A stretch of 25,773 bases of DNA from Beroe ovata (Eukaryota > Ctenophora > Nuda > Beroida > Beroidae), in NCBI GenBank assembly GCA_946803715.1, contig CAMPET010000442.1, positions 1-25,773 of the forward strand. The letters are read 5' to 3'. A program made the position numbers and the translations under genes. The notes beneath the pieces are model-generated. The model was not told where the DNA came from. It searched no databases and saw only the letters and a program-made list of their open reading frames with translations. Below, piece by piece: positions 1,576 through 25,709 of the stretch (the first letter of the stretch is position 1; each line of letters starts with the position of its first letter).

Positions 1576-4500
1576 GTAAGTAATGGGGTGGAGTAGGATC
1601 GCGGGATGTCATTGTCGGCGTTTCTTCTGAGCTTTCCTCTAAATTAATTTTCACNGTCTGTCACGCGACTTCAACAATCAAGTCTCATGAGGAATTGGAA
1701 TTTTCACCCGTTTCCCGATGAGCTAGCCCAAAAATTCCTCCAGATTCGGATTCTACGTCAAAAAGTAGTCTAGGAACACCTATTTCTAGTATGTTTTCTG
1801 CAAAATTAATTTTAGCCGTTTTTGTGTGTCCGATTGATTTTCGCGTTTTTGTAGTCATTGCTTCCCATGGGTTTGAAATCGTCATTTGGGCGTGGTTTCA
1901 CGGCAAGTATGAACTCTACATGATCGTAACGAGGGTTGATATTTGTAGTGTGAGAGTAGGAGAGATGATTTGGTGGAAAATTAGTGACGTGAGTGTCAGA
2001 GAAGTAGTCATTAGGGACCTTCAAAAACGTAGTATAAAAGTGTGGAGCCACTCACTTCACTTTCTACTTTCCTTAGATCGGAAATACGAAGAAATTTTTT
2101 GTTCGATTTTCATGAAAATACCATCGATTCTGATGTCTTTTTCGACGCTGAATCGATTCCCAATAGTGTTTTTGGTCTATCTCACCTCCCTGGGCCGTTA
2201 TCTGTAATGCGACATTGAATTACCAGTCTCAGATTGAATCGGGTTTTTCACCAATATAAAGTGCTCATATCTTGGCATTGCATTCTCATCCCTCATCCAA
2301 ATTCATCCCAGGTGAATCACATCTCTCTGCAACCGTATGTCTCGTCCGAATGTTCCTCCAATAACGGAGGGTGCAGTCACCTCTGTCTTCTCAATGAGAT
2401 GACGGGATACTCCTGTGCGTGCTCCAACGGTCTAATCCTCGCTCCAAACGGTAAGATGGATGGGGTGGAGTCGGATCGCGGGATGTCGGCGTTTATTCCG
2501 TGCTTTTCAGACGCTTCACTGATGTGTGGAGTGTAAACAGTACAATCTCTAGGTTAGTTATTAATTTTCACAACGTTCTCCTTCATCCACAGGGAAGATT
2601 TGTTTGGAACCAGAACTCTCTCTCATACTCGCGGGCCGGACCAAACTGTTCAAAGTTCCCCTCGATCAGGGACTTCCTACCCGGGCAGCTGTACTCCCGT
2701 TCTCTGCTCATGCTGCTGGAGCTATTGCTGTAGCTGTGGATGTACTGAATGGAGTGTACTTCTGGAGTGATGTCACCAGCAATGCCATTGTCAGGTATTA
2801 TAATGACGAGATGTTTCGCGTACTATAGGCTGTTTTTGAGATACATATTTCACCCTAGAGCTAATCATCGTGGCTACACTCTTGATTCTAGAACATTCAC
2901 GCCTCTGGAAAACCTCAGTTTTTTCATCTCTGAGTTCTACATCATACTTGCCTCCCTAGAGGGTGGTATAACACGAGTGGTTTCTACCAAGAGAACATCA
3001 TCTCCACCGATGTCAAGACTCCTGATGGGATGACATTTGACTGGGTGTCCCAGCTTCTCTACTGGACTGACACTGCCATGACACATATACAGGTTCTTAT
3101 GATCACTTTGGGAAGTGTTTGGACTTATCAGAAATTTTATCAGTCCCTAGATCTCCAGGAACTTCTTCAAAAACTTACAGAAACATACTTTAAACTACGT
3201 TGATTAGTACTTGGACTGTTGATGGAATATCATGTTTCTATCTTATGTAAGAACCTCAATATCTCGCCCATATAGGTGTGTAGACCGGATGGTTCCGCCC
3301 GTAAAACTCTGATGAGAGGTCTGGACAAACCCCGTGCTCTGGCTGTGGACTACCTAGCTGGACATCTCTACTGGTCAGGTGAGTCTGCTCCTTCGCAAAG
3401 TTATAGAGTTTGCTCCTTCACATAACCACGCAGAGATGCAGCAGATCGAGCTTAGCTTCATGTTATCCTCTGCAAAGTTATTCATTGATACTCATGTGTC
3501 CGATACACAGTTACCATGACACCCACGTGTTTTCCGTCAGAGTGGGGTGAAAATCCGAGGATTGCCCGGTCACACACAGACGGTCACGAGCCAATCACAC
3601 TGATAGACGGGTTCGATAGTGTGGGCTGGCCCAATGGAATGGCAGTGCATCACGAGGATAGGTATGTGAGAACCCGGAATATTTTCTCTTAAACACTTTT
3701 TCGCTATAGAAGATGTATTTTCTGCTGAGCTCACTTTTCCCATCATAGGATTCTCTATTGGGCCGATGCTAAGTTGGATGTGTTGGTATCGTACGATCTG
3801 AGACTGAGCAGAAAGTCGGTGTTATTGAGTAGCGGTGCCCCGCATCCCTTCGGATTGGCAGTTTTCCAGGATTACCTCTATTGGACGGGTGAGATTGACA
3901 CTACATTATGAACATATTGACTGAATTGTTGACACCACTTTATGACCATTGACTGACATGTTGATTGTTGACACTCCCTGACACCACTTGTTGACACCTC
4001 CAAACATGACACATCTATTATACACAGATTGGATGCAGCAGTCAGTACTCAGACTGAACAGACACCAGCCTCAGCTACAGCCCACTACGGTGGTTTCAGG
4101 GTGGAGGGACCTCATGGGGATCGCAGTGGTCCACGACCAGGCCCAACCACGTGAGTAAATCCATGTGTAACTCAGTGAGTCGGATTTCTCTCTCTGAGGT
4201 TTCCTCGGTCATGTCCCTCCAAACGTTACTTTAATCTCTCTGAGGTTTCCAACTTACCTGATCGGCAATATATACCAGAATTTATTCCACATCGGTTCTC
4301 AATAACAGCTAAATAAGTCTCATTTTATTCTGCTTGCCTCATCATCGTAACTATAACCCCCCCGCCTCACCGTGTTACCTTGGTAACTCACCCTTCCCCC
4401 GTGTTACCTTGGTAACTCTCCCTTCCCCAGAGCTAGCAGAGAACACGTGTATATACCGTAACGGAGTTGATTACCGGGGAACAGTGTCCACCACTATCAG

Positions 4501-7500
4501 TGGGAGAGTGTGTCAAGCGTGGAGCTCCATGACACCACACCGCCACACCTTCACGGAACAAAACTACCCGTGTGAGTGTTTGTCCTCCATATTTGGGGGA
4601 GCAAGTAGTGATGGTTGAATCCTACTCGTTTCTATGGTTACGAATGACGTTGCTATGGTAAACAACATTTTCTCAGTTGCTGGTCTTGGTTCTCACAACT
4701 ACTGTCGGAATCCTAGCGGTGAACCCTTCCCGTGGTGTTACACTACCAGTGCTAACACGGAATGGGAGTATTGCTCCATCAAGAGATGTGGTGAGTTGAA
4801 ACCCAATAACACGACACTTCAGTCACCTGTGTGATAACGAGCTCAGGCTCACAAGTCTGACTTAAAAGTGGGATCTATTTCAATATCTCAAGGGACAGAA
4901 TTGAGATCTATTTCTCTCTCATGGTGGCATCCCCTATCTCTCTTCTTGTCATCCTCAATCCATCCCCAAACCCCCCTCTTCCCATCCCCAAATCCCCCTC
5001 ATCCCCAAATCCCCGTCTTTCTCATCCCCTAATCCCTCATCAGGTCATGTCCGGTACGAGCAGGTGACGAGTAACCTCACATTCTGGGATGCCCAGGCTG
5101 CTTGTGTCACGCTGGGTGGTAACCTGGTAACCATTCGCAGTGAGAAGGAGAACGATGTCGTCAGGTAATGATGGGAGTGAGGTGAGAATGGGGTGTCGAA
5201 TTTGTGAGGGGGAGGGTGCAAATGTGAAGGGGGGTGGGGAGGGGTGTAGCATTGGGAACTTTCAACTATAGAGTGTTTTTCAAATATCACTCGGATCAAT
5301 CATGTCACCTAATACAGCTTCTCCCATCCCTCAGATCGCAGATCAACCCTAGTGAGCGAGGTGTGGTGTGGATCGGTTTGATTAACCTGAAATCCGATAG
5401 CTCCCTCCCACTGAGTTGGCTAAGCGGAGACGGGAGCCAGTACAACAACCTGGCAACAGATAGCAACCTCCCTTCGGAAAATGGGTTTGTGTGGTTGTTT
5501 TTGTGTTTCTGTATCTCTGTGTGTGTGTGTGTGGATCTGTGTCTGTGTAGGTACATCTCTGTCTCTATGTTTGCGTATTTGTCTGTGTCTGTGTTTACAA
5601 ACACTTGTTTTTCTCAGAATGGCTGTGCAACTGAATGTGAGGAATGGGAGGTGGTTGTTGAGGAATCCGAAACAAAGAGTCCCAGCCACGTGTGAGATTT
5701 ACTGTGAGTCTGACACCACTTTCCTCCCTGACTATTCTCTCGCTCTGACACCACTTTAACTCTGACACCACTTTCACTCTGACACCACTTTCAGTTTTTA
5801 CTCTGACACCACTTTTCTGTTTTCACTCTGACACCACTTTCAGTTTTCACTCTGACACCACTTTCAGTTTTCACTCTGACACCACTTTCCTCCCTGACTA
5901 TTCTCTCGCCCTGACAGCACTTTCACTCTGACACCACTTCAACTCTGACATCACTCTCACTCTGACACCACTTGATTATCTTGATTGACACCACTTTCTC
6001 CCCTCAGCGGAACCTGAAGGCTTTACATCTGGTGGTAACGCCGAGGGTGCCAAGTGTTCATTCCCATTTTATCTGGTGAGTAGTACCTATTGAAGTGTAT
6101 TCTTTCTGTCTGATGGAAATGAATCAATCATGAGCAGGTCCACCGGAGGGTGGATCTACTCCTATCGATCGATTTTCGGTTTTTTCATTTCGTTCCTCCC
6201 CGCAGAACAACACACTGAGGTATTCGTGTCAAGCTGTCGGGGACTCCAAGCCCATGTGCGGCACTGTGGGTGTCAAGAATGAGAGTGCGAGGGAGTGGGG
6301 CTATTGTCACACCCACACCACCCAGGAGTCTGCTAGGAGTGAGTGGCTGTTTTTCTCGATTAGGCTCGTGAATTCATGAGTACACTACTGAGTATTTTTG
6401 ATAATACTGTGCGCAGCAATCCGATGTTTTTTCCGATAATTCGGTGATTCTTGTATTTTCGCAGGTAGCAATGTATTCAATCACGTCAAAGCATTTGTGG
6501 ATGGTGTTGTTAGCAGCCAACTGTTGACCGGACCTACAAAGTGTGAAACCAGTCTGACAAATCTCACTCTAATTGTTGAAGAGGACTTGCCAATACGCCA
6601 GGTAGTATCTAATGAACACTGCTCGGAATACTCAATTTGTCCAATCAAGGTGCTGACTATGGGTGACCGTTAGTTTTTCCCAATGTCCAGAAGAATAACC
6701 AAGAAATTAATCTCTCCAACCGCAGATTATTCTGGAGCTGACCTCGGGTTCCGTGGTCACCTCTGTGACGTCATCCTCTCTACCGTGTCGTCGTATCACC
6801 ACCCTGCCCTCTGCTCTCGGGTCTCGGACAACCACAACCGTGGTCGACTGTGACGATCCACCAACCAGGGGTCAGATTGAGGTCGTATTCGGGTCTGATT
6901 CTGTGATGTGCGGTGTCAGACTTTTACCTGTTGGTGAGTCATTCTTCATTGGTAGAGGTTTGGAACAATGAGTTCCTGGTCATGTTGGAAAAGTTAATGA
7001 TAATTGCGTTTGAATGGCTCACAGTTAACTTTGTTTCAGAAAATCTTGCTCTGGGAAAAACAGCTATGATGTCAGATCCCGTGTCAATTGACTCTGCCCG
7101 TTTTGCTGTAGATGGTAAGTGAGGAACGTTCCTAGCATCACCGTCTACTCCTTCATAAAGTGTGGGGTCACAAGTGTTACTCCTTCATAAACACGCAGGT
7201 CGGACGGGTAACGAATGTGCAATCTCACTCTCACGTGATCTCAAGAGACGGAGGTCGGAGTTAGACTCATTGGATTCACAGTCGGGGGAGAAGGAGGGGG
7301 TTGAAGTTTCTGATGAACCCCCGTTCCTCAGAGTAGACTTGGGTAAGATTCGGATTATCTTCTCGATAAGCATCTTATGCCAATCTCGATAATCTTCCGA
7401 ATTTCTACCTCTCGCCTAAACAGTTACGGAAGATATCTAACTTCCGAGTTTTATATTCAAAGGAATGAAAACCGTATTTGTTCAGGCGAGAGTAGGAGTG

Positions 7501-10500
7501 TGGCTCAAGTGCTGGTATTTGTGGAGACTCCCCTAAACCCGCTCGAGATCAGAGTTGGAGACAATGATGAAGAAGAGTGGGGTGCCAACCCCTCTTGTGG
7601 CAAGTACGTGAATATGAGTACGTGATACTAGGGACGTACTGTTTTCCTTCACTTCTCAAAGTTGATTTTGATTATTTCGAAGTGATTTGAGGTTCCACAA
7701 CTATCATCACCTATCATACTTTCTTCACTCCGGCCTTTCACCATTCTCCCCTCTTATTCTAGTTGGAACTACATGTCCGCTACTGATAAAATGAAGAGGA
7801 TAAACTGTGGACTAACTGGACGATACGTGACTATTGTTGTCAGGGATGAGAGAGCTTCCATCAGGTATAGTCCATGGAGTTTGAACCAGGGGACCGTCTA
7901 TCATCCCGAAAACTTGGGTTTAGTCTGGATGGTTTAGCTATTGGAGACAGTCTTTACTTCAGAATGAAAAATTGAATATTATCCTGCTTTGTAGCTATCT
8001 GATTTCATATAGTCTACTCTCTCCCGTGCAGTGTGTGTGAATTGGAGGTGTTCGGAGCTCCCTTCCCCACGATAGGGGGTACGGCCGGGGGAGCTGCCTG
8101 TCAGCACCCATTCGTGGCGGGAGGAGAGGTGAGTGTCAAGGGAGATGTGGTTACCATGGCAACGTGGTAACCAGGGAGATGCGGTTACCATAGTAACGTG
8201 GTAACCAGGGGGATATGAGTTTCTCGGAGAGAGATGGGGTTGCTAGGTTTCCATGACGACAGGGGAATTGTTTTATAAGAGGGTTGAGATCGCTGATTTT
8301 TCAGAGGGAACTATTACTCAACCATACTCCAGGTATACAGGGACGGATGTGTATCTGGACGCCCAGACGAAGCACCCTGGTGTTACACCATCCCATCCGA
8401 GAGTAACCAACTGTGGGGATACTGTCATCAAGCAGACGGTAATGTGCTTGCGGAGGAGGCAGTTGCTTAGCAACACAACTCACATGTTGCTATGGTCTGA
8501 TATGTAATGGATTTCACTGTAATCTATTCTTCAGATGTGAACGGATGTGCGTTCAATAACGGTGGCTGTTCTGATCTGTGCTTCAACACGCCAGTGGGGA
8601 TTAGATGTGGTTGTCCAGATTATATCCAGCTGCAGAAGGATGGCAAAACCTGCAGTGAGTTTCTGTTTAAGTGGTGTCAGCGCTCTTGACACCGGTTTTC
8701 ATATCCAGTATCCTGCGTGTTGACACCGCAATTCTCTTGACACCCATGTCTCCCGTCAGGAAAGGACCCGTGTGCTATTGACAATGGTGGTTGCCATGAC
8801 ACCTGCATGCTGAGTGACGGAGGTGCGGTGTGCGGGTGTAAACCCTGGTTCAAACTCAACCCGGACGGGATTTCCTGCTCTGGTGAGTGGAGCCTGTTTT
8901 TGTGTGTCTTTAGTTAGCCTGCAGGTTTTAAATTTACTAATAGAAAAGATATGAATTAGGATAGAGTTTGTTTGACATTTTGATACGGACCGTGGATATA
9001 AATCGAAAAGGATTGAACAAGAATTTTTGTAATAAAAGTATCTTCTGCATATTCTATTTTGGGGTATTTTATATGTGACATATTTTATATGTCACATTCA
9101 GAGTCTGAGCAGTTCCTTATTGGTGCGAACAAGACCACTATCTTCAACCTCTCCATCGATTCTGACCCTGGAGCTCTCAAGGTATGGGGACATATTCTAG
9201 CGATAAATTTATAAATCCGCGCTGAATCGGTAGTTGATCATCCTCCTCGGTCAACTGATCCATCACTCAAACCCCTGCTCCCATAAGGTGCTGATGGAAG
9301 ACGTGGGCACATCCATCGGTGTGGCATATTCTCAGAAGAAGCAGACAATATTCTGGACTGACTCTGCTCACGATGCAATCTTCTCGGCCAAGTTTGATGG
9401 GAGTGAGAAGAAGATTATCGTCAGCGAAGGTTTTCTTCGCCACGAAAAACATTTTACCCATTATCACTCCTCAATCTCCTCATCCATGGGATTTGTCCTC
9501 TGTATAAATCTCTGGAATCTTTTCCTGACCATTTTCTCTATCAGGTATCAAGTCTCCCGATTGTATCGCGTATGACTGGATCTCAGATCTCATCTTCTGG
9601 AGTGACAACAAGGCTGAGACGATCGAGGTACGTGAATAATTCTGTCTGAGAGGTGGGCAGAGGAGTGAGCAGAGAAAAGAAAACCTCTTTGGATCTGAAT
9701 CTAATTTCAAAGCTCCTCCCTTCTTAGCAAGTTCCCGAGCATCTCCACTCTCCCTCCCTTCAGGTGGCCCGGTTTGACGGCAAGTTCCGTAACGTGATCG
9801 TGAGTACGAAGACAGAGTCTCCACGAGGGGTGGCAGTGCACCCCATGGAGGTAACCGTGACAATCGGTTCACAATCGTCATCCCGCGCTTCACGATACAT
9901 CTTTTCGCTTCTCTCTCCTTCACCCCTATCCAATTATCTGCTCCTCAACCCCTTCCTCACTCTTCTACTCTCCCTCTCAGTTTTCAATACACCATTTTGA
10001 CAGGGTAAGATGTTTTGGACTGACTGGGGTAAAGTACCAATGATAGAATCAGCTAGTATGAACGGAGAGAATAGACGCGCTATAGTAACGGAGAACATAG
10101 TGTGGCCTAACGGTAAGTGTTACCATGGTAACTACAGCTTATGCTTTTGTTACTACTCACTGTATCCATGTTACCGTGGTGAATACTTGTAACCATAGTA
10201 AATTTCCAGGTATTACTATCGACTACGATGAGAATAAAATAATCTGGGTTGATGCCAAACTCGATACGATAGAATCAGCCAACTTGGATGGATCAAATCG
10301 GAAGGTGAGCTATTTATAGTAGCACGTGTTCCTCGCCTGTCACTAGAAACGTGAGAGCACGTGTACCAAGTAATACTCCTGTATTCAGACACATCATGTG
10401 TTAAACAGTGTTACAGTTTAACTCCAGTGTGTTAGGCTACTCATGGCATTTACACTGACTAACTTCGGATGTTCAGTCACATACTAACGGAAATATCCGA

Positions 10501-13500: not shown

Positions 13501-14033
13501 TCTCTACCCCATCAGTTCATGATAGAGAAATGTTGATTGCGACTTGATTGTCCTGAAAACGGGACAAATGTAGAATACTGTTGCCTATTATACTGGGTAT
13601 CCACATTGCAATATGCAGTATGCACTATTGTATGGTGACTGGACTAGGAATTGAGGTCTATAGCAGCTGAGATTCTTAGCTGTTGCGGAAAAATATTGAT
13701 CGAGTTGTTGTCTTCATCCTCCCCCTTTTTATACAAAGAGACACGGTGAAGAACAATAGTTATCCCGACATGATTGTGCTGTGAAATTGAGTACTGTGGA
13801 GTCACGTACTTTCTTGTGTGTCTGGTGGCACGAGGGAGTACGTGAGAGAGGAGGGTGATATACGACGCATGATACGTCAAATGACGTTGGGTGAGGATCT
13901 GTCGATCAATGATTGATGGTTGCGATTTGGGTTATTGGGTTATATAAGGGGGAAAGGAGGGGAAGTGATAAAAGGAAGACTTCGGGTTGGTGTTAAACAT
14001 ACTTAGTCGAGACTCGGAATAGTCGGTGGGTGT

Positions 14034-14077
<44 letters not shown>

Positions 14078-17000: not shown

Positions 17001-20000
17001 CTACTGGTCGTATATGATATCAAAGTTCATGTATGTCTGCGTGTTTGCATGTTTTCTCTCTGTGTATGTGTTTGTGTGTGTGTCTCTGGTTGTGTCTGTG
17101 TATGTGTGTAGATGTCTGTGTGTTTGAAATATTTCTCCCCCGCCCAGACACAGATTATGACGGTGCGAGCTCACAGTTTCGATTTCGACCAAGTGAAGCA
17201 GAAGTTGTATGTGGCTAACAAGAACACCATCTTCAGTTTCAACATGGATGGTACAGGTAAGTGTGAAACATATAGCAACTCATGAAAAATACAGAGAGTG
17301 TCTCAATGAAAAACACAGGTTATGCAAAGAGAATTTGATAGAAAACCTCCATACTATCCTCATGTTTTTAGATCAAGTTTTTTATTTTCCTCGACTTATT
17401 CGAAAAATCTATATGATCAATTCATTTCACACACACTGATAACAGCAAGGAAAAGTACCTAGCCAATTTTGAAAAACACTTGGCTAGTGGCTACCTCTGG
17501 TTACGTATAGTACGTGAAAAAAGTAAATCGCGACGATGCGTAAAAAGTGAGGGTCAACAACATAATATGCTGCGACAGAAATTGCACAGAAATTTGCAGC
17601 GATTTCGAAATCACTCTTATAATATGAGCTACAATATATAATTTATACATGTGCCTAAAATTAGCTGTTAACTTGTGTAGCATTATCGCTATTTGAGCGG
17701 TATAGGTTTGGCACTCTAACGAATTCCATGGTGGATCAAGTAACAAGTTATTAGCAACTCAAGACTTTTATAAAGGAGCAGAAAAATGGAGAAATAATTT
17801 TGTAGAAATCATTCTTCCAAAATATTTTCCGTGCTAAAAGCTTTTTCGAAGTTATTTGTCACAACAAAGTTAAAAAGAGATGTTTCAAAATTTGCAAGCA
17901 TATCTGTGATGACAAAAGGAAAAACATGGGACATGTTTCAAAACAATCCCGAGATTACAGAGAAGGAATTTTAAACGATAAACGACATGTTGCCACTTGA
18001 GAGTGTCGTTACATTTCCTTGACATATTGTCAAGAAAATTGTGTCAGATAAGGATCATTGTCGATATTGATTATTTTTGTGCACAGATGATGGTGATAAT
18101 TATTGTTTTGACTAATTTTTGAGAGGGAGAGAAAGCATCATGTGTTTGTTTGTGTACTTTGGGGACTGTGTTTGTTGTTTGTTTGTGTGATGTGTGCTGT
18201 TTGTTTGTGTGCTTTGTGTGCTGTGTGCTATGTTTGTTTGTTTCTGCTGTCCGCAGTGACCAGATGACAAATAGAAGAGGAGTATGTCATATCTGTTTGA
18301 CAAATCATACGTTTTGAAAATGTGCCCTGAACGAGATATGAAAAATCAGTATTCGGACAAGCGTTGCCAAAACCTCAATGTTTGATAAGAGAATCAGAAA
18401 TGAACTATAGTCACAACACTGGCTTATTGGATCGAAATATCCAATGTTGGCACAGAAGTTTTATTCAAAGGTCGTAACTCCAATTATACTGCACTCGAAA
18501 ACCACACATTTTTCAGACCGTCGGAAGATTCTGGAGATAGGAATGGATGTTCAATATGAGTTGGCGGTGATCTCATGCCTAACCGTGGACTGGATCGGTC
18601 GCAACCTCTACTATATCAACACACTCTTCCCTAACAGAATCTGTGAGTAGACAATATATGCTCCATAACTTGTCTATCGATAGTGATACTAGCTGTTATA
18701 CTAGCTGTTATACTAGCTGTTAGTGATACTAGCTGTTTTTTTATAGTCAGCTATCATTCAACCGACTGTGACCAACCGACTGTGACCAACCGACTGTGAA
18801 CTATTATCGATGCTCCTTCAAAAAAAATGTGGTCCTTAAAAAAATATTGCCCTTCATCGAAATCAAATTTCATATAACAAGCGACTACACTCGAAAATCA
18901 ACTGTTCTTCCGCCAAATGACTTTATACGGTGGAACTGGATATTCGACATACATTATAGCTGAATAGTTTAACTTGGGTTTGACGCAAGTCCTCTCGATC
19001 GCACCAGACGTCTGATTTAGCGATGGGGGATATAATGTGCGAAAAGGGGTCCTTTTTTGAGCGATAGGGAGAAGTGAAACATTACCGAAACTCGGTTTAT
19101 ATATGGTCACATGGCACACGTGCACACGTGCACAGCTTGTTCATTGATCCCGTGCACCTTGCTCGAAAAGAGTTATTGATTGTTAAACTATATAGTATCT
19201 TAACCATCAAAAACACGTTGTCCGAAAACCTCCAGATTATAATCACCCCGGTTAGATAAACCGCAAAATTCACATGAGCAACATTAGCATGAGCAACATT
19301 GACATGAGCACATTGACATGAGCAACATTGACATGAGCAACATTGACATGAGCAACATTAGCAGCATCTGTGCGATGTGTCTATATACCGAGACGAGGAA
19401 GCTCCTTATTTAAACATCGCAATTCCTGGCTCTCGTTTTACACAAATATAGCTCGACACAGTGTTAAAAGAGGCTGAAGTAACATTGTTTCGTGTTATAG
19501 AGACTGCTATATAGGTCTAGATAGCAATGTTGTTACTATCTTAGAGTTTATGATCAAGAACCCATATGGGTGTATGGGTGTTTAGGTTCCAACTTCTAAT
19601 TAACAGTTCTCTGCTAAACCGTAATAACAAAGTTGATCAAGGGAGGCTTATTACCCTGAGATATTTTTGATCTCCCAAACCCTTACCCCTCCTTTTCAGA
19701 TGTGAGTTCAATGAACGGCAAGTATCAGAAAGCTGTGATCCGGGACACGACTCTGATCAGCTCATTCACGCTCAACATGAAGGAGAAGGAAATTATCTAC
19801 TCCACCGAGAAAGTTTTTGATGAGTGGGAGGGAGGAATTTTCAAGGTAGGAGATTGAAATAATAAGGGGGAAATAAGGGGTTTAGGGGGTGCAGACACTA
19901 GAAATGAGATGCGGACGAAAGGAGGGGGTTCAATGGGAAGGTGGTTGAAAGAAGGACGCCATGGGGGCTGTGATTAGAATAAGGGGGTTCGAGAAAGAGT

Positions 20001-23000
20001 AGTAAGGGGGGTGGGGGTGTGACACCATTCATTATCGTTCAACGTATTTGATAGTGATACTACTCTGAGTGTTATTGCGATGATAGAAATGGAATCATAG
20101 CATTTATGAGACTCCCATACGCTCCATTGGGACAAAATATATCTGAAATATGAAATATCAGATAGCTTTTAATAAAGATTCACAAGGAAACTAAATCTCG
20201 TGGATCATATTATATTTCTCTTCCCTGGACGAAACAAAACCTCATTGTTAATGTTTTCATCTGTTATAACAGAATGTTAAGTGTTAACAATTCTCAGATT
20301 GGCATGGATGGCAAGGGCACTCGTACTCAGATTCACAAGGCTGAGTCCTCCACATATGTGCCCACAGACTTGTTCGTTGACAATGACAAGTTGTTCTGGA
20401 TCGGTGTCGACATCAGAACCCAGGATAAAGTTCTATGTGAGTTCTTTGTTCATGTTTTCCCAAAAACTGAGCAGACAATAATTGGAGTTTCATTTTCTAT
20501 GTGATTTCTAGATTTTTCTAGATTTTTCTAGATTTTTCTAGACACTGATCATCTTTTCCCCACTCAGTGTCAAGTAATTTGGACGGTAGTGGGTTGACAA
20601 CACATCGACGCAGTTCCTCGCTGAAGACAAATCTACTCGCTGTGTTTAAGGAAAGTGTCTTTTACTTTGATAGAGACACCGAGACACTGGCTTCCTTCAA
20701 CAAAACAAGTGAGTCCATGAAAATGAGATATCGGATATAGTGGGTCACGCTCACTCTGATTGAGAGACACTGAATCCCATGTTTCTCAACTTTTACTCCT
20801 GATTTCGGAAACAACTTCTTTCGATCTATCTTTTCCTACTGAGACTCACATCAGTGATCCCAGGTGGTCGAGAGACAAGTTACAATGTTGAGATTGAGGG
20901 CGGGTCCTCGGTGTTCCAGTCCCGGGTAATACACCCCTCTCGACAACCATGGGGTGAGTGTGAGTGTGGTTGGGAGTTGGTAGGTTGGGAGTTGGTAGAG
21001 TGAGATAATAGGGTGTGTAATATCGGGGGGGGGGGNGGGGGGGTGTTATACATGGGATTGGGAAGTGATCATTCGGGAGGCGTACTTTCTCTCTTCAAAC
21101 CAATATAATTCCCTCTAATCCCATTGACAGTTTCGTCCAAGTGTGGCTCCAGCTCCCCCTGTGAGCAGCTCTGTCTGCTGAATGACAACACTCAGGACCA
21201 CTACTCGTGCAGTTGTAGTCAGGGCTGGACGGAGATACCCAACGTGGGATGTGTCCGTGAGTATTACATCACGTGACCATCACGTGATGATTTCATGATC
21301 ATTGATCATTGATCAATGTGGAAGTTGAATATTCAGTCCAGATGGTGTCGTGAACTAATCGATCGCGTTCATGACACTTGTTCGACATTTCGCTCGACTC
21401 CATTTCTCGATCGGGTAGTTGCTGCCAGCGTTGAAAATACCCCAACTATTTCTCTCTCTCCTTTCACAGAGGATAGAAAGTTTGCAGTCGTGACGTCCTA
21501 CTCCGGGATATACGAGATTAACACAAACCCGGACTCGGTCCCTGTTCAGCTGCCAATACCTGTTACACCGGATATAGACAGTGAGTTTCATTGACGATTC
21601 CTTTACATTTCCTTTACATTTCCTTGATTTCTTTTACTTTTTCTTGGATTCATTAAGATCCCTCTGCCATTCTTCTTTGCTTTCCCCACGCTTTCCTTCC
21701 TTTTCAAGCTTCGTTCCCCTCCATTTCTCTCTCCAAATCATGAGCAAATTGTGTATACTATACACAAATATCAGCCTAATCGAACCTTGTCAGGTGTACA
21801 CGTGAACCCAGTATCTAAGGAAGTCATTTTCCTTGACCCCTCTCTACAGAGAATACAGAGAACTACATTCGAGGGGAAATGTTAGTGTTTGTGAAGCAAT
21901 GAAAGTGGTGAACTCCGCTAAAAATGAACATCCTGAATCGATTTTTTCGTCTGCGGAGGTGAAAGTTCATTTTCGTCCTGTTTTCAGTGTCAAAGAGCCT
22001 CGTTGTTAGATATATGGATGGAGCAAGAGAACTTCAGGTCGATTTCATATCCAAATTAATGTTTTGGATCATCAATGACACACTGCAGGTAAAATTATTG
22101 GAACTCGGGTAAAAAAATGATTTCCCCAAAAAAAAGGTCTCACCGAGAGTCGAACTCGGGTCGCAGGATTCAGAGTCCTGAGTGCTAACCACTACACCAT
22201 GAGACCGATGCGAGGAATGGAATTGTTACGATTATAAACTGACACATACATCGTAATTGTAACTGAATTTAGCGGAATCCGTAGTATGCAAGTCACAGCA
22301 CGTATAGTGTAATCGCTACTAATGAATTCTATTTAGCATAACGGTCTCATGGTGTAGTGGTTAGCACTCAGGACTCTGAATCCTGCGACCCGAGTTCGAC
22401 TCTCGGTGAGACCTGTCTTTTGGGGAAATCATTTTTTTGTCCCGTTTTGAAAATTACTGGTCATAAGTTCATGATAGAAACGTGTTGTGCACTTAAACAT
22501 TCCAAAGGAATACTTATTATGCACATTGCACAATGGAATGTATACTTTACATTGTACAATTAGTACACTGCGGTAATATGATACCTTGTATTGTATTCTA
22601 TGTACAAGGTACCTGGCACACTGTTATAGGTAGTTAGCAAATAAAATAAATGATGTATATTCAAGGTATATAGTACCTCCTCTGACACCGCTCTACTTCG
22701 ACAGATTGACACTACTTAACTTTGACACCATCTGCTATTGACACCAGTACACACTACACACTGTCAACACATAAAACTCAACTTTAAACATGAAAGTATG
22801 ATATCTTTGGTGTTTATAGCAGAGAAATATTCACCAGACACACAGATGCTTTAGATACACAGTTACCATGGTTACACAGTTACCATGGTTGCAACCCCCT
22901 CCCCTCTCCCTCTCTTTGTCCCAGGTGTGCATGAGTGACGGTTCCTCACGACGCACGATTCTCAACTCGGGAATGTCCGCCGCCTCTCAGCTCACTCTGG

Positions 23001-25709
23001 ACGTGGATAACGGTCTGCTCTACTGGATCGAGAGGACGGGAGGTGTGGAGGGAAGGAGGAGGAAGAGGATGGCGGATACTGTGATTCTCCGATCTGTCTC
23101 GTAAGTGTCAATTTCACAAATCTTATCCAGTCATTTTTTCTATTCATATGCCTCCTATATTTGCACATTTCCCTGCCAAATTCTCTCCTTGGAAATCCTT
23201 TTGACATCGAGTCTCTCCAGTATGATTTGTGTCAAAGTTCATTGTGGTTTATGTACCTCCCTCACACAGATATTCTGGAGCTGATCTACGTAGGATTGAA
23301 CTGCCCACAGGCAGTGTGGAGTCCATGGACATCTCCGCACAACACGGTGTTCTGATATGGGTGAGGGAATGACACCACTCTTCATTGACACCACTCTCCC
23401 TTGACACTACTCTCCCTTGACACTACTCTAAGACAACTTTCTAATCTGACACCACTCTGACACCACTTTTTACTCATCACCTTGACACCACCCTCAATTG
23501 ACAGTTCCCTCCCTTGACACCATTTTTCGATCTGGCACAAAACATCACTCTGAAACCTTTGCACAATATCATCTCAGCATCACTTCTCTTTTCAGGTGAA
23601 CGTCGAGAAAAATGTTATTCAGTACACACGTTTGAAAGGCCTGTCTGAGGATACTATTCTGGTAGGATCATGTCAAACTAGAACTTATGATACTCCAATC
23701 ACTAACATTGATCTTCCCCAAATCTTCTTAATCTGAGTTACCCCCGTCTCTCCACAGGAACACCCCCTTCAAGTTACCCCCTCTTCACTGAATCTAGCCC
23801 CTCTCCCCCATTTTCAAATTAACCCCATCTCTCCCCCACTCATACTATCCCCCACTTTCAAACTAACCCCCCTCTCCCCAATTCATACTATCCCCCACTT
23901 TCAAACTAACCCGTCTCTCCCCCTTAGATCACAGATATTCGGCCTCCCAATCCTGGTCACATAACAAGAGTGGCTTCAACCAACGATGAGGTGTACTACA
24001 CTCAGTATTCCCGTGACACCAAGGGAGGTGAGTTCCTCGAAAAAACGATGGAAAAAACTACAATTCCTCACTTCCGGTTGACCTCTCGAGAACCCGGAAT
24101 TCTGCTCGTGGTTGTGTTTGATCATTTCCAATAATCATGCGATTCGGCGACAATTCCACTGTCTTTGCTCAGGTGTGGTGTTGTCGGATTCCACGAGTCA
24201 ACTGGTCCTGACAACATTCTCTGACAACACCTCGCACAAGGTCCTGACAACGCTTCCCTCCGCAAGGAATCTCGTTATTTACGATGCGGGGCAGGCATAC
24301 TGGAGTGGTAAGTGTGGGGGAAGATATGGTCCTTTTTCCGTGAAATTCCGGGGAGGAGTACCTGGATACTCTTTTCCCTACTTCCATAGGAAGTCATCCG
24401 TGTGAATCGGATCTGCACCTTACTAGCTACTTCACCCCTACTACAACCGAAGTGTTGTTGAATATGACTAAAGTTATGCGTATTACGACTCACGGTGTGA
24501 AGTCCGTATAGAACTCCGACTTGTCACATAATGACCGAGACAAGTATAAACATCTATTCTCCCCATTGTCCGAGATGTGGTAATTTCTCATCTCTCTCTC
24601 TACCAGGGAAGCGTAAGGAGGTCCAGCTGTACGAGAGGGAGGTGTCATACACGGAGGCGAGGACATACTGTAGAGAGGTTTACAACGGTACTTTAGCTCG
24701 GATTGGGGATGAGGATCAGAACAGGGAGATGTTCGAGGAGCTGAACACTGACGAGGTAACACCCCTACCACTGTAACACACCCTGTAACAAACTCCCCCC
24801 TGNACCCCCTCTCTCCCCCTCAGATCACTGATATTCGGCCTCCCAAACCTGGTCACATAACAAGAGTGGCTTCAACCAATGATGAGGTGTACTACACTCA
24901 GTATTCCCGTGACACCAAGGGAGGTGAGTTCCTCGAAAAAAGAAATAAAATGGAAAAAGTTACAAAATGAGTCCTCACTTCCGGTTCAACTCTCGAGAAC
25001 CTGGAATTCTGCTCGTGGTTGCGTTTCATCTTTACCAATATTAATGCGATCCTGTGTCAATTCCACTCTCTATGCTCAGGTGTGGTGTTGTCGGATTCCA
25101 CGAGTCAACTGGTCCTGACAACATTCTCTGACAATACCTCGCACAAGGTCCTGACAACGCTTCCCTCCGCAAGGAATCTCGTTATTTACGATGCGGGGCA
25201 GGCATACTGGAGTGGTAAGTGTGGGGGAAGATATGGTCCCTCTTTCCGTGGAATTCGGGGAGGAGTACCTGGATACTCTTTTCCCTACTTCCGTAGAAAG
25301 TCATCCGTATGAATCGGAATGAGATTGCTATTCACGATGGTTATTTCATTAGTGTTATCTACATTTCACTCTTCACTTTCCCCCTACTACAACCGAAGTG
25401 TTGTGGAATATGACTTCCTACTAAAGTTATGCGTATTACGACTCACGGTGTGAAGTCCGTATAGAACTCCGACTTGTCGTCACATAATGACCGAGACAAG
25501 TATAACATCTATTCCCCCATTGTCCGAGATGTGGTAATTTCTCATATTACTCTCTACCAGGGAAGCGTAAGGAGGTCCAGCTGTACGAGAGGGAAGTGTC
25601 ATACACGGAGGCGAGGACATACTGTAGGGAGGTTTACAACGGAACTCTAGCTAGGATTGGGGACGAGGATCAGAACAGGGAGATGTTCGAGGAGCTGAAC
25701 ACTGACGAG
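1437..25709 (+). CDS. Large LRP-like mosaic receptor, partial at both ends (overall exon chain)
   Basis: Multi-exon gene read from GT/AG splice sites, phase continuity and domain content. Exons: 1437-1575 or 2312-2450, 2593-2794, 2960-3092, 3276-3378, 3541-3661, 3749-3888, 4028-4150, 4431-4571, 4677-4790, 5044-5164, 5335-5484, 5618-5703, 6008-6075, 6206-6338, 6465-6601, 6726-6933, 7040-7114, 7199-7342, 7486-7603, 7763-7864, 8032-8128, 8333-8438, 8535-8654, 8760-8882, 9102-9181, 9288-9429, 9545-9627, 9764-9850, 10004-10112, 10210-10304, 10579-10687, 10793-10864, 15129-15245, 15932-16008, 17154-17256, 18517-18642, 19700-19845, 20298-20436, 20568-20708, 20864-20953, 21131-21256, 21470-21580, 21794-21880, 21988-22088, 22925-23100, 23270-23360, 23596-23661, 23928-24027, 24173-24307, 24607-24755, then a duplicate cassette 24824-24923, 25080-25214, 25561-25709. 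Neither start codon, signal peptide, transmembrane segment nor stop lies in the window. EGF/YWTD alternation places it with LRP-type receptors by family knowledge; ligand and pathway are unknown. Residue numbers in other entries count from 2312 as residue 1. Confidence 0.85.
1656..2311. repeat. Tandem intronic repeat, copy 4, leading into EGF exon B
   Basis: About 1660-2200 repeats copy 3 with scattered substitutions, then the same exon-proximal tail ends at the acceptor ATCCCAG. The minus-strand frame present in copy 3 is broken here into two overlapping frames (1885-1685 and 2051-1812), consistent with a small indel. The 5' end adjoins the N at 1655, where the sequence jumps from intron downstream of exon A into the repeat. 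Confidence 0.8.
2312..2450 (+). CDS. EGF-like exon B
   Basis: Second copy of the 139-bp EGF exon: acceptor ATCCCAG, donor GTAAGA. Encodes residues 1-46 and the first base of 47, with [12 protein letters not shown] and YSCACSNGL. The last EGF cysteine lies in the following exon (GKIC), joined in phase 1 (AAC-G/GG-AAG). In LRP proteins this EGF type closes one propeller and precedes the next, so a further propeller should lie left of the window. Downstream intron sequence is also similar between copies A and B until the N at 1655. Confidence 0.88.
2593..4150 (+). CDS. YWTD (LDLR class B) beta-propeller 1
   Basis: Six exons (2593-2794, 2960-3092, 3276-3378, 3541-3661, 3749-3888, 4028-4150), residues about 47-321, close to the roughly 260 residues of a six-bladed propeller. 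Visible blade motifs are [31 protein letters not shown] and LYWTDW, with the typical HPFGLAV before the last strand. This fold binds protein ligands outside the cell in LRP and LDL receptors. Unusually, no EGF follows: a kringle starts directly after it. The intron at 3889-4027 contains a few TGACACCAC repeats. Confidence 0.9.
4374..4416. repeat. Two X-box-like palindromes in a short tandem repeat
   Basis: GTTACCTTGGTAAC occurs at 4374-4387 and again at 4403-4416, as part of a 29-bp tandem repeat just before the kringle acceptor at 4430. The palindrome resembles RFX X-box sites (GTNNYYATRRNNAC) although the centre is TTGG-type here. Function is not shown by the sequence. Confidence 0.55.
4431..4790 (+). 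CDS. Kringle domain
   Basis: Two exons (4431-4571, 4677-4790; phase 1 to phase 1) encode residues about 322-405. The pattern is [37 protein letters not shown] and WEYCSIKRC: all six kringle cysteines are present, plus the family landmarks CQAW, NYCRNP and PWCYT. The split between the second and third cysteines is a usual kringle intron position. Kringles bind proteins or lysine-like ligands in clotting proteases, and occur in Kremen, an LRP6 co-receptor; a kringle inside an LRP-like chain is unusual. The NYP-F-AGLG stretch fits NYPNAGL of typical kringles. Confidence 0.93.
5044..5703 (+). CDS. C-type lectin-like domain 1 (degenerate)
   Basis: Three exons (5044-5164, 5335-5484, 5618-5703; phase 1 to phase 1), residues about 406-524. 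Landmarks are [18 protein letters not shown] (first cysteine and helix), [14 protein letters not shown] and VPATCEIYC. The two inner cysteines that normally form the second disulphide are both missing, as are EPN/QPD and WND calcium-binding motifs (NGRWLLRN stands in the WND region). It therefore keeps the fold but probably not calcium-dependent sugar binding (inference). Confidence 0.88.
5704..6007. repeat. TGACACCACTTTC minisatellite filling an intron
   Basis: This 304-bp intron consists mostly of about a dozen imperfect copies of CTCTGACACCACTTTCA. The last copy supplies the pyrimidine tract of the 3' splice site (TTTCTCCCCTCAG). Related TGACACCAC units are scattered through other introns of the same gene. 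Confidence 0.85.
6008..6338 (+). CDS. Fibronectin type II domain 1
   Basis: Exons 6008-6075 and 6206-6338 (phase 1 to phase 1), residues about 525-591. [27 protein letters not shown] and WGYCHTH reproduce the FN2 layout: C-x-FPF, second C, W/M-C, and WGYC, four cysteines. In the usual family the third cysteine is preceded by W; here it is M. FN2 modules bind collagen or gelatin and accompany CTLDs in mannose-receptor proteins (family knowledge). Confidence 0.87.
6465..6933 (+). CDS. Unrecognised extracellular module (possible galactose-binding-like fold)
   Basis: Exons 6465-6601 and 6726-6933 (phase 1 to phase 1), residues about 592-706. I do not recognise the family. Visible features are alternating hydrophobic strands ([21 protein letters not shown]), four cysteines (PTKC, LPCR, VVDC, VMCG) and an ending [10 protein letters not shown] that resembles the CELEVFG end of the next, FTP-like module. 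It could be a divergent FTP or other beta-sandwich domain. Splice phases fit both neighbours, so the exons themselves are well supported. Confidence 0.75.
7040..8068 (+). CDS. Fucolectin/F5-8C-like (FTP) lectin module
   Basis: Exons 7040-7114, 7199-7342, 7486-7603, 7763-7864 and the start of 8032-8128, residues about 707-866. Landmarks in order: [55 protein letters not shown] and VCELEVFG. This is the layout of the fucolectin/tachylectin-4/pentraxin (FTP) family, which binds fucose through a calcium-stabilised site. The central loop ([20 protein letters not shown] and onward) is longer and more charged than in the family and lacks the usual histidine-rich stretch, so fucose binding is uncertain. 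The exon at 7486 was chosen over an acceptor at 7423 because the latter gives TAA in the required frame. Confidence 0.85.
8069..8438 (+). CDS. Fibronectin type II domain 2
   Basis: Begins inside exon 8032-8128 and continues in 8333-8438, residues about 867-920. [33 protein letters not shown] and LWGYCHQAD give the four FN2 cysteines with PWCYT and WGYC in the right order. Phase 0 joins the two exons (GAG/GTA). It shares an exon with the end of the FTP module, the only module boundary in this protein not set by an intron. Confidence 0.88.
8150..8210. repeat. Cluster of X-box-like palindromes in an intron
   Basis: GTTACCATGGCAAC (8150-8163) and GTTACCATAGTAAC (8184-8197), each followed by GTGGTAACCAGGG, form an imperfect tandem repeat of 34 bp. 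Both 14-mers fit the RFX X-box consensus. The same intron carries a palindromic GTTGCTTAGCAAC in the next one (8462-8474). Confidence 0.6.
8535..8882 (+). CDS. Two EGF-like domains
   Basis: Exon 8535-8654 encodes an EGF with [19 protein letters not shown] and DGKTC. Exon 8760-8882 encodes a second with [20 protein letters not shown] and PDGISC. Each is a single exon bounded by phase-1 introns, residues about 921-1001. The NNGGCS-LC type is the one that caps LRP propellers. A pair before a propeller is the arrangement seen in LDLR and LRP proteins. Confidence 0.93.
9102..10864 (+). CDS. YWTD (LDLR class B) beta-propeller 2
   Basis: Eight exons (9102-9181, 9288-9429, 9545-9627, 9764-9850, 10004-10112, 10210-10304, 10579-10687, 10793-10864), residues about 1002-1260. 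This is the most canonical propeller of the four: [68 protein letters not shown] and IFWTDWGRK mark six blades. Exon boundaries tend to fall between strand-forming segments. The last exon ends in phase 1 and its partner EGF exon is 4.3 kb away at 15129, with a complete GPCR gene on the other strand in between. Confidence 0.93.
10119..10132. repeat. Perfect X-box-like palindrome
   Basis: GTTACCATGGTAAC, a perfect 14-bp palindrome seven bases downstream of the donor at 10113. A degenerate relative (GTTACCGTGGTGAA) follows at 10170. It fits the RFX X-box consensus; no function can be read from the sequence. Confidence 0.55.
10970..12856 (-). CDS. Class A (rhodopsin-like) GPCR, complete, nested antisense
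   Basis: Minus-strand exons 12856-12739, 12569-12408, 12148-12009 and 11821-10970 join to 1272 nt, 423 residues plus stop. The ATG at 12856 is chosen because it gives a short extracellular N-terminus with an N-glycosylation sequon (N7) before TM1; upstream reading lacks an in-frame ATG nearby. TM landmarks: G40-N41 in TM1, LAD (D71) in TM2, W91 of the WxLG loop, C98 at the top of TM3 pairing with C173, W147 in TM4, P197 in TM5, SWTPY (W244, P246) in TM6 and NPVIY (279-283) in TM7. TM3 ends in Y-R-L (R123) rather than D/E-R-Y. Position 7.43 is T273, so it cannot be an opsin; 3.32 is K105, so it is not a typical amine receptor. The cytoplasmic tail is about 130 residues, Ser/Thr/charged. The ligand is unknown. 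Confidence 0.92.
11015..11063. repeat. Three TCACGTGA octamers inside the GPCR tail
   Basis: TCACGTGA occurs in ATCACGTGAC (11015-11024), GTCACGTGAC (11036-11045, perfect palindrome) and GTCACGTGAT (11054-11063). On the coding strand they give the repeated Ser-Arg-Asp triplet in the receptor tail. The core is an E-box of the MITF/TFE/USF type. Confidence 0.6.
12857..14028. other. Intronic stretch upstream of the GPCR
   Basis: Lies 5' of the antisense GPCR and within the large intron of the LRP-like gene, so it should hold the GPCR promoter and 5' UTR. I see no clear TATA box, no convincing additional coding exon and no long repeat. The open frames here are short, unlike any domain, and not supported by splice sites. 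Confidence 0.5.
14029..14099. repeat. GT microsatellite at gap edge
   Basis: About 70 bp of (GT)n with small interruptions, running straight into the N run. The repeat is the likely reason the assembly broke here. Confidence 0.95.
14100..15061. other. Assembly gap (962 N)
   Basis: Unknown sequence inside the intron 10865-15128. The flanking exons match in phase (1 and 1), so no missing exon is required, though a symmetrical phase 1-1 module could be hidden. Open frames that run through it are artefacts. Confidence 0.99.
15129..15245 (+). CDS. EGF-like domain after propeller 2
   Basis: Single 117-bp exon, phase 1 to phase 1, acceptor CCCCGCAG, donor GTGAGT, residues about 1261-1299. [25 protein letters not shown] and GSC give six cysteines in EGF spacing. 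It closes propeller 2 although separated from it by 4.3 kb. NGGC is replaced by RPCPDG-C, so it is a diverged LRP-type EGF. Confidence 0.88.
15246..15931. other. Intron with CACGTG-rich sequence
   Basis: Contains numerous ACACGTGT/CACGTG words (15253-15292, 15430-15475, 15610-15640) and an X-box-like GTTGCCATGGTGAC at 15456-15469. No coding exon or RNA gene recognised. Confidence 0.6.
15932..20953 (+). CDS. Diverged YWTD-type beta-propeller 3
   Basis: Seven exons (15932-16008, 17154-17256, 18517-18642, 19700-19845, 20298-20436, 20568-20708, 20864-20953), residues about 1300-1573. Phases agree throughout and the set begins and ends in phase 1. Blade-like strands remain ([78 protein letters not shown]), but the YWTD core is nearly lost. 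It is called a propeller because of this strand rhythm, the length and the flanking EGFs. Exon 17154 has a second usable acceptor six bases upstream (CCCAG/ACACAG), which would add Thr-Gln. Confidence 0.8.
16009..17153. other. Long intron, AT-rich, with short inverted and direct repeats
   Basis: Holds a 21-bp direct duplication (AAATCTACAAAATTATAAGG, about 16131-16170), inverted AAATTGGCA/TGCCAATTT (about 16227-16260), inverted TGATTAAATCA/TGATTTAATCA (about 16279-16321), and GT-rich tracts at 16615-16680 and 17030-17125. No exon or RNA gene recognised. The paired inverted repeats could be the remains of a small non-autonomous transposon, but no complete terminal repeats or target duplication were identified. 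Confidence 0.5.
17257..18516. other. Long AT-rich intron
   Basis: Between propeller 3 exons. Contains a TTTGTTTGTGTG-rich tract at about 18140-18245. No coding exon, RNA gene or complete mobile element recognised. Confidence 0.5.
18643..19699. repeat. Intron with three minisatellites
   Basis: GATACTAGCTGTTA-type units at 18681-18737, CCGACTGTGACCAA repeated at 18762-18799, and ATGAGCAACATTGAC repeated about six times at 19273-19360. The remainder is unremarkable AT-rich intron with no coding exon recognised. Confidence 0.75.
19846..20297. other. Intron, nothing distinctive
   Basis: G-rich plus-strand tract at 19860-20020 (AAGGGGG-type words) and otherwise AT-rich. No exon or RNA gene seen. 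Confidence 0.5.
20508..20542. repeat. TAGATTTTTC short tandem repeat
   Basis: TAGATTTTTC repeated about three times in the intron before exon 20568. Confidence 0.8.
21131..21256 (+). CDS. EGF-like domain after propeller 3
   Basis: Single exon, phase 1 to phase 1, residues about 1574-1615. [24 protein letters not shown] and VGC give the six cysteines; CEQLCLL resembles the CSHLCLL of the first EGF. It closes propeller 3. The intron before it has a poly-G run with an N at 21036. Confidence 0.9.
21470..24307 (+). CDS. Diverged YWTD-type beta-propeller 4
   Basis: Eight exons (21470-21580, 21794-21880, 21988-22088, 22925-23100, 23270-23360, 23596-23661, 23928-24027, 24173-24307), residues about 1616-1904, phase 1 to phase 1. 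Strand rhythm and remnants of the blade motif remain ([46 protein letters not shown]). A basic insertion GRRRKRM follows LLYWIER and contains a furin-type R-R-K-R. No EGF follows: the next exon starts a CTLD. The intron 22089-22924 carries two tRNA genes. Confidence 0.8.
22135..22206 (-). tRNA. tRNA-Gln (anticodon CTG)
   Basis: 72-nt cloverleaf on the minus strand: acceptor GGTCTCA/TGAGACC, D-arm with TAGTGGTTAGC (A box), anticodon stem CAGGA/TCCTG with loop CTCTGAA, T-arm CCGAG-TTCGACT-CTCGG (B box). No intron. A run of seven or more T follows the 3' end on the minus strand (complement of 22128-22134), a Pol III terminator. Identical in sequence to the plus-strand copy at 22343. Confidence 0.96.
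22343..22414 (+). tRNA. tRNA-Gln (anticodon CTG)
   Basis: Same 72-nt sequence as the minus-strand copy. Acceptor GGTCTCA pairs with TGAGACC, discriminator T; anticodon CTG at 22376-22378 reads CAG codons. TTTT at 22418-22421 is a Pol III terminator. The two genes point away from each other within one intron of the LRP-like gene. Confidence 0.96.
22422..22924. other. Intron remainder with X-box-like and TGACACC repeats
   Basis: AT-rich sequence, TGACACCAC-type units at about 22681-22745, and two X-box-like 14-mers, GTTACCATGGTTAC (22862-22875) and GTTACCATGGTTGC (22879-22892), shortly before the acceptor at 22924. No exon seen. Confidence 0.6.
23361..23595. repeat. TGACACCACTC minisatellite intron
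   Basis: Short intron largely made of imperfect TTGACACCACTCTCCC units (23368-23530), related to those at 5704-6007. Confidence 0.8.
23750..23927. repeat. C-rich tandem repeat in intron
   Basis: Imperfect duplication of a unit containing CATACTATCCCCCACTTTCA and AACTAACCC (about 23841-23912), ending at the acceptor CCCTTAG. Confidence 0.75.
24607..24755 (+). CDS. C-type lectin-like domain 2, N-terminal exon
   Basis: 149-bp exon, phase 1 to phase 0, residues about 1905-1954. [32 protein letters not shown] and REMFEEL match the first helix, first cysteine and second helix of CTLDs (compare [17 protein letters not shown] in the first CTLD). The rest of the domain must lie in later exons beyond the window, or after the duplicated cassette. 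Confidence 0.82.
24824..25709 (+). CDS. Duplicate three-exon cassette (propeller 4 end plus CTLD start)
   Basis: Exons 24824-24923, 25080-25214 and 25561-25709 repeat 23928-24027, 24173-24307 and 24607-24755 with the same lengths (100, 135, 149 nt), phases and splice sites; introns are also alike. Total 384 nt, 128 codons, phase 0 in and phase 0 out, so it can be included without a frameshift. About nine of the ten or so coding differences are synonymous; one changes N to K in RPPNPGH. Including both copies would put half a CTLD next to a repeated propeller blade, which is structurally odd. Alternatives are mutually exclusive use, or two alleles laid in tandem by the assembler; an N at 24803 lies just before this copy. 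Confidence 0.75.

Follow-up and report, generated by a model that had tools for sequence, protein, structure and literature searches.

What kind of receptor is encoded by a ctenophore gene in which YWTD beta-propellers and EGF repeats, as found in the LDL-receptor-related proteins (LRPs), are interrupted by a block of kringle, lectin-like and fibronectin type II (FN2) modules? The gene lies in the 25,773 nucleotides of Beroe ovata contig CAMPET010000442.1 (the window, which is the entire contig C436, GC 44%, of an assembly of 77.8 Mb in 534 contigs). The answer that we consider probable is an LRP1/2-type endocytic receptor in which an LDLa cluster is replaced by a cassette of kringle, C-type-lectin-like domain (CTLD), FN2, a module termed X, FTP domain and second FN2; endocytosis, the ligands, and replacement rather than insertion are what we infer. 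The orthologue used for comparison is P0028, a predicted protein of 3352 aa from the ctenophore Bolinopsis microptera ('uncharacterized protein LOC134814511').

Gene Model and Domain Order

Fifty exons between 2312 and 24755 of the forward strand, read by hand and checked by script, join as an open frame of 1956 codons with no stops, with 32 exons in 2312-10864, 18 in 15129-24755 and phases that agree throughout. The 49 introns have a median length of 162 bp, the longest being 4264 bp; since the exon boundaries were picked by hand at AG and GT, the GT-AG consensus is not an independent test of the model. The gene is truncated at both contig ends.

The chain, all of it on the forward strand, opens with an EGF exon (2312-2450), the P0028 counterpart of which is preceded by a further propeller, and YWTD beta-propeller 1 (2593-4150; six exons, residues about 52-318). 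The cassette follows, beginning with a kringle (4431-4790, two exons) that occupies the place of the post-propeller EGF of an LRP and continuing with CTLD 1 (5044-5703, three exons), the first FN2 domain (6008-6338, two exons), module X (6465-6933; two exons, 115 aa), an FTP/F5-8 type C-like domain (7040-8072, about 160 aa) that matches the fucolectin FBP32, and the second FN2 domain (8073-8438). Two EGF exons (8535-8882), an EGF-EGF pair like those at the start of propeller units in LRP1/2/4 and LDLR, lead into propeller 2 (9102-10864, eight exons), which is separated from its own EGF exon (15129-15245) by the 4264-bp intron containing an N gap at 14100-15061. Propeller 3 (15932-20953; seven exons, divergent), an EGF exon (21131-21256) and propeller 4 (21470-24307; eight exons, divergent) complete the run, and the gene leaves the contig in the first exon of a second CTLD (24607-24755), named from the P0028 alignment.

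In a Pfam scan run on seven pieces of the window protein, Ldl_recept_b was above the cut-off in propeller 1 (75.4 bits) and propeller 2 (157.7 bits), as were the kringle (93.9 bits), Lectin_C (46.5), the first FN2 (30.2), the FXa_inhibition EGFs (39.9 and 64.6) and F5_F8_type_C_2 (30.0 bits, cut-off 27.8). The second FN2 reached 22.0 bits against a cut-off of 22.2 and matches FN2 modules of MMP-9 and fibronectin, and mannose-receptor proteins more weakly; P0028 likewise has an FN2 (21.7 against 22.2) and an F5/8C-like domain (21.1 against 27.8) just under the cut-offs. Propellers 3 and 4 gave no Pfam match above the cut-off and were recognised at 76.6 and 54.9 bits by an independent profile built from 30 non-ctenophore segments, with no matches in 200 shuffles of the region; they scored higher with an earlier profile that is not independent, seven of its 37 segments coming from ctenophores. 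The second CTLD, of which one exon lies in the window, had no Pfam match and owes its identity to the alignment with P0028, which has two Lectin_C stretches. An LRP-like receptor with YWTD propellers flanked by EGF repeats, as proposed in an earlier note made from this sequence, is confirmed by these results, and its product of 1954 residues becomes 1956 codons in the present model.

Conservation in Bolinopsis microptera

P0028, the only full-length relative found and, as a ctenophore protein, a reason for dropping a sponge origin of the gene, tops the 86 matches to the half of the protein from propeller 2 to propeller 4 (4535 candidates scored, about 5.8 billion proteins searched). Its residues 836-2780 align with residues 1-1956 of the window protein in one BLASTP piece, with 1106 of 1978 columns identical (56%) and 55 gap positions, none of them domain-sized, and with all cassette domains inside. 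The alignment spans both the 4150/4431 join and the 8438/9102 join, as well as the 4264-bp intron with its gap and a fragment of a G-protein-coupled receptor (GPCR) gene, and the window chain is therefore a single gene conserved in two ctenophores. Thus the earlier claim of one phase-consistent chain running from propeller through cassette to propeller is upheld by the 50-exon open frame and by P0028, and the break into separate genes that it had allowed for at those two joins is contradicted.

Downstream of the part shared with the window, P0028 contains the rest of the second CTLD, EGF-EGF, a last propeller, a transmembrane helix (about 3231-3252) and a long, acidic tail that carries TYDNPVYEF (NPVY at 3286) and further tyrosines and has no PPPSP. 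Upstream, three more propellers with EGFs are present, of which the first is incomplete at the start of the model, and the whole reads propeller, EGF-EGF, three propellers, cassette, EGF-EGF, three propellers, CTLD, EGF-EGF, propeller and transmembrane helix. The cassette does lie between propellers 1 and 2 of the window, as had been claimed, but the numbering is relative, given the three propellers upstream in P0028.

Within the B. ovata assembly, the first ~518 residues of P0028 have their match on contig C288 (reverse strand), a match that stops near the contig edge; the assembly yielded no counterpart for the stretch ~518-835 (about 318 residues), nor for anything downstream of the opening exon of CTLD 2, including the transmembrane helix and the NPxY tail. 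More propeller-blade and EGF exons are found on C288 beyond the P0028-matching part (0.5-45 kb, reverse strand). Either they add a large number of further propellers to a single receptor or a second gene lies next to it; in the first case the protein might rank with the largest LRPs known. Positions 511-3400 and 4265-7084 of C288 are near-copies of each other (2742 of 2811 aligned bases).

LDLa Repeats and the Class of LRP

Regarding ligand-binding repeats, Pfam reported no LDLa in the window protein pieces or in P0028, and a strict motif pattern that undercounts found no LDLa in either ctenophore protein, where three LRP1/LRP2 sequences gave 19, 15 and 27, an LRP4 gave 4 and an LRP6-like sequence gave 1; these negatives cover partial proteins, about 318 residues and the C-terminus being absent from the assembly and the N-terminus of P0028 being cut. 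At the level of contigs, no LDLa-like motif was detected on C436 or C288 with a strict pattern (2 and 3 matches on the controls C204 and C226). Elsewhere in the genome LDLa repeats are present, with at least 150 matches (150 of 579 candidates scored, 150 matched). Contig C204 (104000-113500, reverse strand) has an arrangement of EGF-propeller-EGF-LDLa repeats-transmembrane helix, read by eye from the open frames, with two LDLa matches, and is a candidate ctenophore LRP5/6 gene separate from that of the window. On C226, several LDLa repeats followed by a propeller exon at about 42-47.5 kb mark a candidate LDLR/LRP-like gene.

The layout resembles that of LRP1 and LRP2 in being a giant chain of YWTD propellers and EGFs with recurring clusters, each followed by EGF-EGF and propeller-EGF runs, and, as far as the predicted P0028 shows, in having a single transmembrane helix and an NPxY tail; it differs in that the kringle-CTLD-FN2-X-FTP-FN2 cassette and a CTLD are found in place of LDLa clusters, none of which was detected. 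LRP4 and LRP5/6 share the YWTD propellers, but no LDLa was detected here, P0028 has no PPPSP and the cluster slots recur in mid-chain, a recurrence for which LRP1/2 is preferred over LRP4. The LRP5/6 layout of four propeller-EGF pairs, LDLa, transmembrane helix and PPPSPxS tail (the tail judged on P0028) is not that of this protein. An EGF-EGF-propeller-EGF unit after a ligand-binding cluster, as described in the excerpt of PMC8192809, is present here, and it is also present in LRP4 and LDLR.

Comparison of EGF-EGF-propeller 2-EGF with PDB chains gave the highest whole-chain scores for multi-propeller LRP2 (best stretch 1352-1711, 226.5 bits), and LDLR, VLDLR and ApoER2 align from the first EGF at 191-204 bits. 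Chains of LRP4, LRP2 and the LDLR type start at query residue 2-4, those of LRP6 at 42 or later. In a tree of 50 propellers (from 57 profile matches, less seven partial ones; bootstrap unsettled, several long rows), the window and Bolinopsis propellers pair one to one from P1 to P4 (bootstrap 100), and P4, on a long branch, falls in a starred set of seven rows that includes four of LRP1/2 and one vitellogenin receptor (95/97). The tree would favour LRP1/2, as weak support and not as proof.

Several observations weigh against the assignment to LRP1/2. The best single PDB stretch for EGF-EGF-propeller 2-EGF is that of LRP4 (3v65_B, 279 bits), and propeller 1 matches LRP2, LRP4 and LRP6 E1-P2, the fit to LRP6 being good. 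In the tree, P2 joins three LRP1/2 rows with support that is not starred (85/87), P1 has no resolved position and the only neighbours of P3 are propellers of ctenophores; when path length is used, an LRP4 and an LRP6-like row come nearest, among the outside rows, to all four propellers of the window. The term LRP1/2-type is thus one of layout more than of sequence. Regarding the layout itself, no EGF stands between propeller 1 and the cassette, LRP1 has two NPxY motifs against one in P0028, and the transmembrane helix and NPxY tail are seen in one predicted Bolinopsis model only. According to the excerpt of PMC8192809, all members of the LDL-receptor family carry complement-type (LDLa) repeats, so that by a strict definition the window protein falls outside the family.

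Ligand-Binding Motifs and Related Module Types

The Ca-dependent sugar-binding C-type lectins carry EPN/QPD and WND motifs. EPN, QPD and WND triplets number 0 in the window protein, in which CTLD 2 is incomplete, and 0 in P0028. For the FTP domain, the RGDCCPER stretch of FBP32 is taken here to hold the fucose-site residues, fucose binding by fucolectins presumably using His/Arg; in an alignment to the first FBP32 domain, read by eye, five RGDCCPER residues are gapped and both Arg columns are changed. The canonical sugar-binding motifs of the CTLDs and of the FTP domain therefore appear to be absent, leaving glycan recognition unsupported at the level of sequence, and since these motif tests failed, protein ligands would be the likelier cargo. 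Of the earlier proposal of a multi-ligand receptor joining protein and glycan recognition, the multi-ligand part is plausible and the glycan part is not supported.

The kringle has plasminogen kringle 4 as its best single PDB match. The lysine site of that kringle, which we take to be an anionic pair plus aromatic and Arg residues, appears in the window as S/E at the D/D pair with both Trp kept and Glu for Arg, and in P0028 as a D/E pair with Arg-Trp kept (both by eye). For CTLD 1, the highest-scoring PDB chains were PLA2R, the yolk-sac IgY receptor, DEC-205 and MRC2, the single-stretch scores being weak (PLA2R 20.9 bits, tetranectin 30.7).

Module X, 32% identical between the window and Bolinopsis versions, had been called an unknown module; it does belong to no Pfam family, but it is predicted to be a beta-sandwich, with a predicted local distance difference test (pLDDT) score of 78. 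Foldseek found nothing for this model at E 0.001 or lower, and its structural matches are middling (best Z 7.9), CBM32, DOC and fucosidase C-terminal domains being mixed with unrelated beta-sandwiches of similar Z, so that assigning X to the galactose-binding-like sandwiches is no more than a guess. By sequence, the PDB yielded nothing below E 0.49. A second FTP domain was considered for X and found no support (profile comparison probability 0.1), and the fold of X and FTP together, predicted from one sequence, was poor (pLDDT 36.5).

Among known proteins, the mannose receptor family (MRC1, MRC2, PLA2R, DEC-205) likewise combines FN2 and CTLD in endocytic type-I receptors, but here there is one CTLD per cassette and the FN2 comes after it. 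Members of that family have an N-terminal cysteine-rich (ricin-type) domain, FN2 and then 8-10 CTLDs, and to our knowledge no YWTD propellers; no ricin-type family was reported by Pfam in the window protein or P0028, and the layouts do not agree. Plasminogen, HGF, ROR and Kremen share the kringle, but no protease, kinase or CUB domain was detected here, where the kringle forms part of an LRP chain. Fucolectins (FBP32, eel agglutinin type) share the FTP-type F5/8C domain, the fucose-site stretch of which is changed here.

Occurrence in Other Proteomes and in the Genome

With the cassette as query, 27 of 7991 scored candidates matched. Among the matches listed, coverage was 11-19% and the precomputed Pfam annotation gave YWTD (PF00058) for none of the 27 and kringle together with Lectin_C for four, the amphioxus and acorn worm proteins P0006, P0012, P0013 and P0014. 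These resemble the cassette in having both domains in one protein, and P0006, P0012 and P0013 (not P0014) also list PF22633 (F5/8C type 2), but no YWTD or FN2 is listed for them and they cover 12-15% of the query. Module types of the cassette thus co-occur elsewhere, without YWTD or FN2. A query of the cassette without its kringle matched two of 2626 candidates, P0028 and an amphioxus protein at 26% coverage among the matches listed, and with the propeller half as query kringle was listed for one of the 86 matches, P0028. These searches were limited by length and could miss fragmentary gene models of other ctenophores, and the comparison was made without sequences from Mnemiopsis, Hormiphora and Pleurobrachia; with this scope, propellers with this cassette have so far been found only in the two ctenophores Beroe ovata and Bolinopsis microptera. 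The earlier statement that no described receptor has the combination agrees with the proteome search, in which no protein outside ctenophores had it. No paper describing it was found in a search of open-licence PMC full texts judged by title and abstract.

Two papers on Mnemiopsis may bear on relatives of the gene, and use the label LY, which, if taken from SMART, is presumably the LDL-receptor YWTD repeat. The excerpt of Pang et al. 2010 (PMC2959043) gives a single LRP5/6 contig, for which EGF and LY are listed as domains but LDLa is not, and which might be a fragment of the present gene or of the orthologue of the C204 gene. In PMC11797021, a figure legend on Mnemiopsis CTLD proteins includes 'LY' and, as far as the excerpt goes, no kringle, so a relative, a CTLD-plus-YWTD protein, may already be drawn there.

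Searches of the B. ovata genome at the DNA level gave at least 57 matches to 4400-8900, nearly all of them, besides the region itself, to an intronic repeat (40 of 288 candidates scored). At the protein level, with 72 of 79 candidates scored, there were at least 62 matches to the cassette region, and those outside C436 were all to the kringle, bar a weak one to the FTP region, located on C230. For the 3'-end unit, no match other than itself was obtained. Kringle matches number 80 genome-wide (77.8 Mb), and some long open frames, such as those on C20 and C18, contain several kringles each.

Alternative Explanations

A large LRP-derived receptor with the same cassette could serve mainly in matrix or cell adhesion or in signalling, endocytosis being secondary, which we regard as unlikely, though less so than the other alternatives. 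F5/8C-like domains are common in adhesion proteins, the FN2 matches are to gelatinases and fibronectin, and the long acidic tail of P0028 has extra tyrosines. NPxY motifs, according to the excerpt of PMC8192809, also bind signalling adaptors. However, the layout and the YDNPVY tail match those of endocytic receptors of the LRP1/LDLR type, and no kinase domain was reported by Pfam in P0028. An LRP5/6-type gene, that is, a Wnt co-receptor, with a lectin/kringle insert appears improbable, even though propeller 1 fits LRP6 E1-P2 well, an LRP6-like row is among the nearest by path and Kremen, a partner of LRP6, has a kringle. A Mnemiopsis LRP5/6 contig with no LDLa listed (excerpt of PMC2959043) also fits that explanation. 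The EGF-EGF before propeller 2 and the CTLD-EGF-EGF-propeller after propeller 4 do not fit it, P0028 has YDNPVY without PPPSP, and a separate gene of propeller-EGF-LDLa-transmembrane form is present on C204; with the late start of the LRP6 alignments, these points also speak against LRP5/6 as the reference adopted in the earlier note.

That the cassette was inserted into an LRP that never carried LDLa at that place, so that nothing was replaced, is very improbable; the strict pattern found no LDLa-like motif on C436 or C288, and the cassette adjoins propeller 1 without the usual EGF, but it stands directly before EGF-EGF-propeller, where the LRP1/2/4 proteins of other animals have LDLa. Least credible of all is a fusion of neighbouring genes, or an artefact of assembly or gene model, for which near-identical duplications at contig ends, the gap at 14100-15061 and an antisense GPCR fragment in the 4264-bp intron might be cited, since a single predicted protein, encoded on a Bolinopsis contig of 16.3 Mb, has the same order and the phase is consistent over 49 introns.

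Other Features of the Contig

Both ends of the window carry duplications. A near-copy of the first EGF exon (1437-1572, forward strand; identity with 2312-2450 at 132 of 136 aligned bases) is a tandem or allelic duplicate, and lies in a region (1-2310) of repeated stretches upstream of that exon. A near-copy of exons 23928-24755 is found at 24824-25709 (forward strand), the exons being identical at 97/100, 134/135 and 143/149 positions. The scaffold-end duplications (1437-1572, 24.8-25.7 kb and those of C288) are possibly unmerged alleles.

Within the introns, part of a rhodopsin-family GPCR gene (10971-11971, reverse strand; Pfam 7tm_1 27.9 bits, cut-off 30.5), likely with more exons to about 12.9 kb, lies antisense in the 4264-bp intron. 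Two inverted tRNA-Gln (CTG) genes (22135-22206, reverse strand, and 22343-22414, forward strand) are found in an intron of propeller 4. An intronic repeat of TGACACCAC-like units occupies about 5700-6015, and similar text was seen by reading at 22680-22760 and 23370-23540.

Proposed Function and Implications

Regarding function, the window would be the middle of a very large single-pass receptor gene of LRP1/2 layout, with the cassette standing where an LDLa cluster normally precedes EGF-EGF-propeller and a lone CTLD at the next cluster position. The cassette would capture extracellular protein ligands, the EGF-propeller units may act as a spacer and perhaps as a device for pH-dependent release as in LDLR, and the YDNPVY tail would recruit adaptors for uptake, so that the receptor would clear ligands and possibly signal. 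A more specific history is tentative, namely that a ctenophore endocytic receptor of LRP1/2 scale lost its LDLa clusters and gained other binding cassettes at the same slots, with LDLa giving way to the kringle, another lysine-docking module, and FN2, CTLD and discoidin-like domains added. If true, the LDLa-cluster position of LRPs would be an exchangeable ligand slot. An LRP chassis with an NPxY tail (in the orthologue) and a different cassette would demonstrate that evolution can change the ligand slot independently of the chassis.

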